Source: Mesocricetibacter intestinalis (GTDB lineage Bacteria > Pseudomonadota > Gammaproteobacteria > Enterobacterales > Pasteurellaceae). Taken from it: 64,000 bases of DNA. The stretch is taken from assembly GCF_004363295.1 (NCBI RefSeq), contig NZ_SNYQ01000002.1, positions 1-64,000 of the forward strand, given 5' to 3'. The position numbers and the translations under genes were made by a program. The notes under the pieces are model-generated. The model saw only the letters and a list, made by a program, of their open reading frames with translations. It was not told the origin of the DNA and did not search any database. Below, one piece after another: positions 35,372-39,157 of this stretch (positions are counted from its first letter, which is position 1; every line of letters starts with the position of its first letter).

Positions 35372-37039
35372 CTACAGATATCCGAACATTGTGGTGAACA
35401 GATAACCGAAGACACATGAAGTAATTACCCCGATTAACCCCGGAATAATAAAGCTGTGGTTAATTACGAATTTACCGATATGAGTGGTACCTGAGCGGTC
35501 GAACTGAATGGCTGCAAGGTCGCTCGGATAAGTCGGTAAAATATAATAACCGTAGCAGGCGGCGGAGAAGGCCAGAATAATCGCAGGATCCACGCCTATA
35601 CCCAAGGCTAGCGGTACGAAGGCTACCAGTGCCGCAGCCTGTGAGTTAACGAATTTGGAAATCAGCAGTAACATTACCGCATAGGTCCAAGGATGAGCTT
35701 TCACCACATCACCGAGAGCGGCTTTCATCATTGGGGTATGTACCGCAAACATGGTTTCCGCCATCCAAGAAATCCCGAATACGGCGACTAACGCAATCAT
35801 ACCGGAACGGAAAATTTCGTTTTTACTGATTTTACTGGCGTCGGTTTTGGTAAAGATAACGATCAGCGCGCCCGCCAGTAACATAAAGATCTGAATAACA
35901 TGAACCATACTTAAGGATACTTTTTTATTGGCTTTATCCTTCAACAGAATACTGGCGTTCTGTATGGTTTCGGTTTTATCGCCGTTACTGATGGTAACCT
36001 GATTATCCTGCAGGCTAAGAGTTTGGATAAGCTTGCCGGAACCGTCATAAATTTCCAGACCCTCATAAGCGGTTTTGGTTTTAGCTTTATTATCTTTAAT
36101 ATCCAGAGATACTTTGCCTTCTTTGGCTAAGGCGACGATTTTCCCTTCTTTAACATTAAAGCTTTTCACCGCTTTATCGCCGGATAAAACTTCGACCACC
36201 TGAGCAGGCGCACTTTTTTCAAAGGACGGGCGCAGCTCCTTAAAATAACCTAATAAGGCGACGACGAAAATCGCACCGAAGAAGATCCACATGGCATTCC
36301 AACTGGATTGCGGCAGTTTCTTATCTAACAGAGAAGCGGTATCGCCGTAAACGTATTTTTTGAATTCAGGATCTTTAATTTTTTCCTGGAAGACAGGGTC
36401 TTTATCCAAATCTTTACCGCGGAACCAGCTAAAGATACCTATTGCCAACACCCCACAAAGAGTGGAAGGAACGGATATTTTTAATAAATCAAGATAACCG
36501 TCGAAACCGGCAATCGGATGCTGAGCGCTAATCAGGAAAGTGGTTAAGGTAACCACGGCAACGGAAACCGGAGAAGCGATAATCCCCATTTGAGAGGCGA
36601 TGGAACTTGCCGCCATCGGACGTTCCGGACGGATATTATTCTTAATCGCAATATCGTAAATAATCGGCAACATGGTATAAACCACATGTCCGGTACCGCA
36701 CAGAATGGTTAGGAAGCAGGTAACGAAAGGGGCGAGAATACTGACGTATTTAGGATTTTTACGTAATAATTTCTCGGCGATTTGCAGCATGACGTCAAGC
36801 CCGCCACTGGCTTGTAGGGTGGCGGAGGTTACCACCACGGCCAGAATGGTCAGCATTACGTCAATGGCAGGTTTGCCCGGTTCGATGCCGAAGCCGAAAA
36901 CCAAAACGATAAGGCCGACACCGCCCAGCATACCCAGTGCGATACCGCCTTTTTTGGCACCGTAAAATAAACAGATAAGCACGATGACCAGCTGAATAAT
37001 AAACTGCGTGCTTTCACTCAGATTAGTTAAAAACTCCAT
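35372..37039 (-). CDS. dcuB: DcuB-type anaerobic C4-dicarboxylate antiporter with an inserted domain
   Basis: Residues 1-272 and 376-555 match DcuB closely: [71 protein letters not shown]. DcuB exchanges fumarate, malate or aspartate for succinate during fumarate respiration. Unlike E. coli DcuB (446 residues), this protein is 555 long. About 103 residues (273-375, nt 35915-36223) are inserted between LRPSF and LSMVHVIQ. The insert is hydrophilic and beta-rich, with no membrane span and no motif I know. The reading frame is intact, so it is a real extra domain. Confidence 0.92.
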
Positions 37040-37192: not shown

Positions 37193-39157
37193 TTAATTCT
37201 TATTTTCCAACTGGAAAGGAAGAAATAAGCTAAGCGGGCGCTGACGAATAATCTGGCATATACATTTAATAATATTACACCAACTGTCCACTTCGGTACC
37301 TAAAGAACGTAGTGCGATCCATAAGGTAAGAGAGAAGCTGACAATTAAATTTACTGCGCCGATCAGCAGAACGTAGCCCATATTCAGGAAAAATACTTCG
37401 GTCGAGAGATTCCCGCTGACGGTGGCATAGCCCAGGTTGGCGGAAGAGAAGGCCACATGGCGGATATCCAGCGGTAAATCGATTAAATAGCCGAAAACCG
37501 CAGTTAAACCGAGCAACATACCGAAGCATAGATTCCCCATAATGGAACCGTAGTTTTTATGCACATAATTCGAAAACCAGGCCCGGAATTTAGAGCTGGC
37601 CACCCGTTTCAGACAAGGGTGATAATGTAAGCGCATTCTTAAGTTCAGGTAGTTACTGCGGTTATCAAAAAAACCGCTGATGATGCCCGAACAGAACAGC
37701 CATAATCCGGCAATAGCGGCAAACCACAGGGTTCCCTGAGTAGGATCAATGGAATGCAGCTGATATTCGATATCCGCTTCGCTTAACAGGGCCGTACCGG
37801 TATAACGGGCATAGCCGTAAGCGATAGCGCCGGAAAGACTGGCGGCCACAATGACGTTACCCAGCACGGCGATACTTTGCGAGCGTACCACATCCACCAA
37901 TAATTGTGCCAGTTGCATATTTACGCTACGCCCCTGTTTGCGTCCCACCGCTTCGGCAAAACGGGCGGCCGTCATTGCCGGCTGCTTGGTGGCCACGGTA
38001 AAATGCAACATAAAGATAATGACAAAGCCGATGCCGTAATTGAGTCCCGAGGCGATTCCCATCCAGACCTTATCACTGATAATACTGCCCAGATAAATTT
38101 TCAGTAATGCCATACAAGCGATAATAATGCCAGCTCCCGCGGCTGAGAAAAACATACCGAAATATTCTTTTTTATCCCGGGTAATATAATGTTCGCCGTG
38201 ATCACTGGTATGTTGAGTAATAGTACGCGAAACCATTCCCAGACTGTTTTTCCAGAGATCGGTAATACTATGCTGTTCCGCAGAGGCAACGGCGAGTTTG
38301 CCGGTCAGTAACAAAATTTCATTACTCGGCAGACGTGGCAGGGTAAAAATCTGCAGCAAGAGTTCCAGCCGGGTCAGGGTTTGTTTCAACCGCTCCAGCA
38401 AATGAGCTACATGGAGGGAAGAGCCGGCGATTGCTCCGCGTTTTTGCAGACGTTCCACCTGTTCGCATGATTGCTGATACATTACCTGTAAATGCGCATC
38501 GTCAAATTCCTTGCCCTTATGCTGGGCTTCAATCAGTTTCATAATTTCCTGATTCAGCGCCACAAAAGGCGAATCTGCATTAAGAATGGTCGGTTCCAGT
38601 CGGATTAATTCCGGTTCGAGATCTTCGGCAGCAAGCCAGATAGACAGCATTTTAACCGCTAACAGACCTTCTTCCTGTAAATGTCGGTATACCCGCTGTT
38701 TATCTTCTTCAGTGGCATAGCTGCGCAGCAAATCCAACAATTTTACCCATAATTTGAGCGGCGTGTTTTCCAACCAACGGCGATCACCACGCTCACGGAA
38801 CAGTAGGAAAAACACATCGCGCAGATCATTGGTATCTTTAAATTCGGGATTAAACTTTTCATACAGGCGTTGGCGAATTTCGCGTCCGAAGCCTTCGCGC
38901 CCAAAAATCCCGTTGCTGATAAACAAAGGGTAAAGACGTAAGCCGCAAAGCCAGCGACAGAGTTGGGCGGTTAGATTTTTAGCCAACTCCTCGTCCAGTT
39001 GCAACTCATTAATCAGTGAATTGATCTTTTGGCTCAGATCATCGGATTTACTCTGACGCAACCATTTGCATAATTCATTCAGTAAATCGAAAATATTACC
39101 GTTTTCTGCCTGTTGCAGTAAAAACGGCCTTAGTTTAATTTTATTTATTTTGCTCAT
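37193..39157 (-). CDS. Gcr-like membrane protein ('site-specific recombinase' family, PF10136)
   Basis: The 654-residue protein has a soluble, helical N-terminal third and six or so membrane spans after residue ~330 (YFGMFFSAAGAGIIIACMALL, VIVAASLSGAIAYGYA, GTLWFAAIAGLWLFCSG and others). It resembles the PF10136 family, first named for a gonococcal 'recombinase' (Gcr). I see neither a serine nor a tyrosine recombinase motif, and the membrane spans argue against that role. Function should be taken as unknown. It ends 153 bp before dcuB on the same strand. Confidence 0.65.
   Translation of the reverse strand: MSKINKIKLRPFLLQQAENGNIFDLLNELCKWLRQSKSDDLSQKINSLINELQLDEELAKNLTAQLCRWLCGLRLYPLFISNGIFGREGFGREIRQRLYEKFNPEFKDTNDLRDVFFLLFRERGDRRWLENTPLKLWVKLLDLLRSYATEEDKQRVYRHLQEEGLLAVKMLSIWLAAEDLEPELIRLEPTILNADSPFVALNQEIMKLIEAQHKGKEFDDAHLQVMYQQSCEQVERLQKRGAIAGSSLHVAHLLERLKQTLTRLELLLQIFTLPRLPSNEILLLTGKLAVASAEQHSITDLWKNSLGMVSRTITQHTSDHGEHYITRDKKEYFGMFFSAAGAGIIIACMALLKIYLGSIISDKVWMGIASGLNYGIGFVIIFMLHFTVATKQPAMTAARFAEAVGRKQGRSVNMQLAQLLVDVVRSQSIAVLGNVIVAASLSGAIAYGYARYTGTALLSEADIEYQLHSIDPTQGTLWFAAIAGLWLFCSGIISGFFDNRSNYLNLRMRLHYHPCLKRVASSKFRAWFSNYVHKNYGSIMGNLCFGMLLGLTAVFGYLIDLPLDIRHVAFSSANLGYATVSGNLSTEVFFLNMGYVLLIGAVNLIVSFSLTLWIALRSLGTEVDSWCNIIKCICQIIRQRPLSLFLPFQLENKN

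Follow-up and report, generated by a model that had tools for sequence, protein, structure and literature searches.

A predicted periplasmic beta domain inserted in the DcuB-type transporter of Mesocricetibacter intestinalis, shared with Campylobacterota and probably acquired together with the gene

The window (the whole stretch of 64,000 nucleotides of Mesocricetibacter intestinalis DNA that was analysed) carries a dcuB-type gene for an anaerobic C4-dicarboxylate transporter at positions 35372-37039 of the minus strand, recognised from its open reading frame (ORF) and from family matches. The frame is single and uninterrupted and encodes 555 aa. It is adjoined by a 654-aa ORF (37193-39157, minus strand), the second half of which appears membrane-like by eye. 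The 555-aa protein matched the Pfam family DcuA_DcuB (PF03605) at 464.6 bits against a cut-off of 27, in two stretches that flank an insert, and the NCBIfam models NF009136 (714.7 bits against a cut-off of 396, residues 12-552) and TIGR00770 (561.9 bits). Judged by these matches, with both halves above curated cut-offs, the protein can be assigned to the DcuA_DcuB family of anaerobic C4-dicarboxylate transporters. An earlier interpretation made from the letters of the DNA (the sequence-only reading) had likewise called the transporter DcuB-like on both flanks of the insert, and the Pfam and NCBIfam matches on each side bear this out. The insert itself, a beta domain comprising residues 273-375 (35915-36223, minus strand), was delimited by alignment with the Dcu proteins of E. 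coli, Proteus and insertless Campylobacterota and by an AF2 model. In the alignment, residues 271-377 (107 aa) stand against 9 residues of the annotated E. coli DcuB (446 aa); residues 273-375 have no counterpart there, as had been proposed, and the coordinates agree. When the insert of the window protein was searched alone, no Pfam or NCBIfam family was found above cut-off.

The insert is flanked by two predicted membrane spans, residues 248-266 (span VIII of a 12-span model; 36242-36298, minus strand; hydropathy peak 1.95) and residues 378-396 (span IX; 35852-35908, minus strand; hydropathy peak 2.52), in keeping with its earlier placement in a loop between spans. The hydropathy peaks, which overlap and were sorted into spans by us, and the charges together fit 12 spans with both ends outside. 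Over 118 aligned rows, and with the insert excluded, the six loops assigned to the inside carry approximately 22 Lys and Arg residues per protein and the five assigned to the outside approximately 3. The Lys/Arg-rich loop at residues 204-247 (36299-36430, minus strand) has a mean of 8.67 such residues in these rows. Because this loop and the other positive loops are predicted to be cytoplasmic, the insert is predicted to lie on the periplasmic side, between spans VIII and IX. A counterpoint is that the insert is itself Lys-rich (14% K, mean net charge +2.7), which would also suit the cytoplasm. Both ends of E. coli DcuB lie outside. Twelve spans are reported for that protein and 12 are predicted for DcuE of Actinobacillus succinogenes in the available text of PMC10634366.

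Modelling of residues 268-380 with AF2, using 23 sequences in the alignment, returned nine strands (pLDDT 73.5, pTM 0.63). Four of these form a first beta meander at residues 279-313 (36101-36205, minus strand; strands 279-286, 289-296, 300-305 and 308-313) and five a second at residues 325-369 (35933-36067, minus strand; strands 325-331, 337-344, 347-352, 355-360 and 362-369). There is no hydropathy peak between residues 266 and 378, and with the nine predicted strands this upholds the description of the insert as hydrophilic and beta-rich. The AF2 model of the full-length protein was poor (pLDDT 43, pTM 0.25), which leaves the junction between domain and spans outside the usable model. The two meanders may be an old internal duplication, although the comparison is suggestive only: one aligned to the other with an hhalign score of 15.2 (probability 7.5%), which was matched by 1 of 100 column shuffles.

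Sequence searches of Pfam, NCBIfam and the PDB assigned the insert to no soluble domain family above cut-off. Foldseek gave no match to the insert model at E<=0.001, and the best VIA-align match, the N-terminal beta sandwich of F1-ATPase epsilon (Z 5.1, rmsd 2.9, 72 residues aligned), falls below the distinctive level, as do the NAD kinases (Z about 4 to 4.5). Profile searches of the PDB returned pilins (E 0.052-0.38) and one other protein (E 0.98), with MotB at E 0.099 when the full-length profile was used; a relationship to pilins or MotB was dropped, the best PDB E-value being 0.052. Of the 28 inserts searched in Pfam, 15 matched the CopK family with an E-value of 0.1 or better, the best being 0.00016, and the NCBIfam CopK model matched the window insert at E 0.066. 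In a rescan of 8 inserts, the three CopK rows inspected (E 0.00028, 0.033 and 0.12) cover 22, 25 and 28 residues and reach at most 20.9 bits against a cut-off of 23.8. Assignment to CopK was abandoned, since the matches are too short. CopK, a periplasmic copper protein, was the only match recurring in more than three inserts, perhaps owing to composition.

One hundred and forty Pasteurellaceae genomes were searched for orthologues. A full-length dcuB orthologue (82-100% identical) was found in 32 of them, the window genome included, representing 7 of 43 Pasteurellaceae genera by our own count of group codes. All 32 orthologues contain the insert, with a length of 103-104 aa, and this together with the unbroken ORF shows that the insert is not an artefact. 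For a further 106 genomes the best match was 3.5e-72 or weaker, and 2 genomes gave no match at all; among the matches listed, these weaker ones are Dcu paralogues of 41-47% identity with frames of 438-490 aa. Of 295 genomes sampled from the order, 36 gave a match at E<=1e-75, and 3 of these are Pasteurellaceae with the insert. The other 33, all from other families, lack it and have frames of 446-489 aa; 4 of these are DcuB proper (72-74% identity) and the remainder are 52-56% identical. The sequence-only reading had asked whether most DcuB proteins carry the insert, and the answer divides by family, with 32 of 32 Pasteurellaceae orthologues positive and 33 of 33 matching genomes from the other families of the order negative. 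Across the Gammaproteobacteria, 1 of 293 genomes matched at E<=1e-70, namely the window's own.

A scan of contigs with the insert alignment recovered 22 loci, from Aggregatibacter, Haemophilus, Rodentibacter, Pasteurella, Actinobacillus, one record named 'Pseudomonas stutzeri' and one Campylobacter metagenome assembly. The organism name of the record titled Pseudomonas stutzeri NCTC11607 (L053) is probably wrong, because its DcuB is 88% identical to the window's and its upstream ORFs are as in the Haemophilus loci. On the Campylobacter metagenome contig the transporter is adjoined by putative flhB-, rplU- and obgE-like ORFs, and therefore the contig does not have the appearance of a stray Pasteurellaceae piece. 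The insert profile found matches in 17 of 48 genomes of the genus to which this metagenome assembly belongs, and a wider profile did so in 43 of 249 Campylobacterota genomes. L128, another protein with a long loop and a core 0.77 identical to the window's, was joined to the insert family by hhalign (probability 96.8%, E 2.3e-10). Adding it to the 43, the insert is present in at least 44 of the 109 Campylobacterota genomes (out of 249) that have a Dcu match at E<=1e-60. The insert is not specific to Pasteurellaceae.

The Campylobacterota proteins with the insert (e.g. L065, L067, L073, L100) resemble the window protein in the position, similar length and aligned strand pattern of the insert, and their cores are up to 0.88 identical to the window's. 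However, their inserts are only 17-52% identical to it, with length and beta pattern kept. Across all rows of this comparison, cores are 0.80-0.93 identical to the window's except in one subclade, where they are 0.64-0.70; insertless relatives (L141-L144) reach 0.79-0.81. Of the remaining 65 Campylobacterota genomes with a Dcu match, 19 were examined: 7 have a short loop (13-26 aa) and 12 a different sequence of 63-85 aa. This second insert type (L129-L140; WGQKM...KDKLGNP) occupies the same loop as the beta insert and has no detectable relation to it (hhalign probability 0.3%).

A 'quick' core tree was constructed from 76 of the 120 distinct rows after removal of the insert columns. The 14 Pasteurellaceae rows form one clade (support 99, starred) within a group of Campylobacterota and Pasteurellaceae (98, starred) that leaves out the Enterobacterales DcuB. 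In topology tests on 72 of the 120 distinct rows, also with a 'quick' tree, forcing Pasteurellaceae and Enterobacterales DcuB together was 50.5 log-likelihood units worse (p-AU 0.0036, a value weakened, like the other topology-test p-values given here, by the groups having mostly been named after the trees or identities were seen). Vertical orthology of the window gene with the Enterobacterales DcuB was rejected. Because the core tree places the Pasteurellaceae among the Campylobacterota and rejects their grouping with the Enterobacterales, Pasteurellaceae dcuB was probably acquired horizontally, insert already included, from a Campylobacterota-like donor. The nesting of the Pasteurellaceae within one Campylobacterota subclade has a support of 91, not starred, and the exact sister group is thus tentative. 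Insert-bearing and insertless cores are interleaved on the 76-row tree, where the insert label needs five changes and the 7 insertless Campylobacterota rows need 7. A single clade of all insert-bearing cores was rejected (72 rows, p = 0.025). With the five label changes, this points to losses, gains or exchanges of the insert having recurred.

The insert is less conserved than the transporter around it, with a mean column entropy in the 32 Pasteurellaceae proteins of 0.73 bits against 0.13 in each core half. Using the method of Nei and Gojobori on pairs with a core dS of 0.03-0.8, which are not independent of one another, median dN/dS was 0.061 for the insert and 0.017 for the core in Pasteurellaceae (71 pairs), and 0.052 and 0.026 respectively in Campylobacterota (53 pairs). 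By medians, dN of the insert exceeded that of the core 5.8-fold in Pasteurellaceae and 1.9-fold in Campylobacterota. The insert shows the signature of purifying selection rather than of free drift; the selection and the predicted strands both count against disorder, an outcome that the sequence-only reading had put up for checking. For comparison of the inserts, 69 distinct rows were chosen by a loop of at least 98 aa, with L128 set aside and compared separately. In the rows so selected, the stretch corresponding to residues 271-377 measures 104-109 aa, and none of the 69 contains a cysteine. Among 31 rows chosen from the 69, Lys318 (36086-36088, minus strand) and Ile364 are identical in all and Lys297 is present in 29. 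An intein or other self-removing element was rejected as a candidate, given the size of about 103 aa, the lack of cysteine in all 69 inserts and a frame that is kept while identity to the window insert spans 17-75%.

These data bear on what the domain is for. A nearly neutral loop expansion, whereby the loop takes any filler and the domain does nothing except leave the transporter undisturbed, would fit the variety of the loop (9-26 aa, 63-85 aa of apparently unrelated sequence, or 107 aa as in the window) and the scatter of insertless rows on the core tree (7 changes for 7 Campylobacterota rows). However, pure filler would approach a dN/dS of 1, whereas the insert stands at 0.05-0.06, keeps to a narrow 104-109 aa (in the 69 rows selected for at least 98 aa) and has Lys318 and Ile364 in 31 of 31 rows. 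Selection to stay folded and harmless could account for part of this constraint, and we regard the explanation as somewhat unlikely. More doubtful still is a periplasmic ligand-binding domain that binds a C4-dicarboxylate or another small anion and so regulates or feeds the transporter. The invariant Lys318, the nearly invariant Lys297 (29 of 31 rows) and the Lys-rich composition would suit such a domain, but the 31 rows contain no wider near-invariant set of polar residues that would outline a pocket, and neither Foldseek nor VIA-align gave a distinctive match to a known fold.

The inserts of the Campylobacterota fall into two main subtypes, the grouping of which is at odds with that of the core. 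Within core clade X, proteins with subtype A (L073, L075, L080) and subtype B (L081, L082, L098) are 0.87 identical in the core and 0.27 in the insert. Conversely, subtype B inserts from the two core clades, X and Y (the latter represented by L100, L102 and L106), are 0.51 identical on cores of 0.67. In the insert tree (28 of the 69 rows), one branch, with a support of 88/95 (not starred), separates subtype A from the rest, and a grouping by core clade X is rejected (p = 1.05e-6). The 'quick' core tree in its turn rejects a clade made up of insert subtype A (p = 1.4e-7). Such conflict might reflect long-branch or alignment error rather than exchange of domains, as the inserts span just 111 columns and diverge strongly, and the program warns that long branches meet in the insert tree. 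This is improbable, given that the raw identities show the conflict without any tree and that the rejection runs both ways. We would put at about even the prospect that the insert is an exchangeable cassette, moved between Campylobacterota transporter cores by recombination in the flanking spans, which are nearly invariant. The same loop also hosts the second, unrelated-looking insert of 63-85 aa.

Among known systems, E. coli DcuB shares with the window protein a core that is 0.75 identical, the same Pfam and NCBIfam families and 12 spans; it differs in having a nine-residue loop in place of the 107-residue stretch. Moreover, E. coli dcuB adjoins dcuR-dcuS and fumB, which the window dcuB does not, and its product works with DcuS, which was not found in the Pasteurellaceae genomes searched. 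DcuE of A. succinogenes (Asuc_1999) is a DcuB-type protein of 555 aa (PMC6011838, in part) and is here likened to the window gene by length alone, the presence of an insert in Asuc_1999 being deduced from that length. A published Asuc_1999 primer has no match in the 64,000-nt window, and we do not equate the two genes. In the available text of PMC6011838 and PMC10634366, DcuE is a constitutively expressed fumarate/malate carrier. Expression of Asuc_1999 in E. coli gave fumarate uptake (PMC6011838, same text), and DcuE is described as preferring malate and as performing malate/C4-dicarboxylate antiport (PMC10634366, same text). By analogy with what is in print for this 555-aa homologue, the window DcuB would carry out C4-dicarboxylate antiport. 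Transport itself can probably proceed without the insert, since insertless relatives share approximately 80% core identity and a 555-aa carrier works in a foreign host. The available passages of PMC6011838 and PMC10634366 give the lengths of the proteins and do not discuss the extra length of the 555-aa DcuE as a domain. In the portions available of these two papers and of PMC1805755, PMC6978683, PMC3091790, PMC5293742 and PMC8307970 we found no description of the insert as a domain or of a transfer between phyla, and we do not claim that it is unpublished.

Taken together, we consider it likely that the insert is a horizontally acquired, dispensable, folded all-beta accessory domain of the periplasm, acting as a species-tuned cap or docking surface. 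The domain would sit in the periplasm where the two halves of the DcuB-type C4-dicarboxylate antiporter join; dcuB, already carrying it, would have entered the Pasteurellaceae from a donor resembling Campylobacterota, and the transport cycle would proceed without needing it. As a cap it may stabilise the transporter or its dimer, and as a docking surface it may hold a periplasmic partner. Taken separately, the function proposed here, a species-tuned periplasmic cap or docking surface and not a coupler to DcuS, is the least certain step and a tentative suggestion, and any choice between cap and docking surface would be made with low confidence. Gene neighbourhoods lend the docking role no genomic support: among the loci compared, no neighbour recurs throughout, and the genes that some of the loci share do not look like partners. 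Neighbours were listed for 9 of the 22 insert-profile loci, and none is common to all nine; six have three upstream ORFs in common (putative fabH, fabD and fabG), and two Aggregatibacter loci have an upstream serS-like ORF in common. In Campylobacterota 7 of 9 loci were compared, as L179 and L185 gave no Dcu ORF in the filter. With two ORFs considered on each side, L178 and L180 have two neighbours in common and no other pair has an orthologous one. The genes that loci share (fab genes, serS and flhB-like, putatively housekeeping or flagellar) suggest no functional partner.

Lastly, the sequence-only reading had suggested that the insert might be a sensor or coupling domain that alters the interplay between DcuB and a sensor kinase of the DcuS type. 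This would accord with the position of the insert in a soluble loop and with the role of DcuB as a co-regulator of DcuS in E. coli (PMC8307970, in part), but it is very unlikely because DcuS was not found in any of the 140 Pasteurellaceae genomes. A search for DcuS/MalK-family kinases at E<=1e-20 gave no match in these genomes, the window genome included, whereas the control was positive in 6 of the 14 named genomes, including E. coli; E. coli DcuS itself used as the query also gave no match in the 140, a result that carries weight only beside these controls. No DcuS partner, such as a co-regulator in the E. coli sense would have, was thus found for the window DcuB. Furthermore, the insert is predicted on the opposite side of the membrane from the mapped, cytoplasmic contact of DctA, the other co-regulator, with DcuS (PMC8307970, same part). 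Campylobacter jejuni is said to lack the known regulators of such carriers, and its dcuB to be under RacR (PMC5293742, available text). What stands of the earlier interpretation is therefore a soluble-looking beta domain in an inter-span loop that is absent from E. coli DcuB; the proposed change in DcuS coupling does not. The domain may still act as a sensor or bind a protein other than DcuS.

In fumarate respiration, including that of industrial succinate producers, succinate is exchanged by DcuB/DcuE carriers, which annotation treats as ordinary transporters of the E. coli type. Should the insert indeed be an acquired accessory domain, the family models miss a constrained periplasmic domain present in a sizeable part of the Dcu proteins sampled from two phyla, one that moved from phylum to phylum together with its gene and is exchanged as a unit. 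The cassette, if that part also holds, would lend an otherwise strongly conserved transporter a periplasmic face that varies under selection, which could serve a species-specific partner or escape from something that enters via the carrier. For the Pasteurellaceae, where DcuS was not found, these results also caution against transferring the DcuB-DcuS model of sensing.
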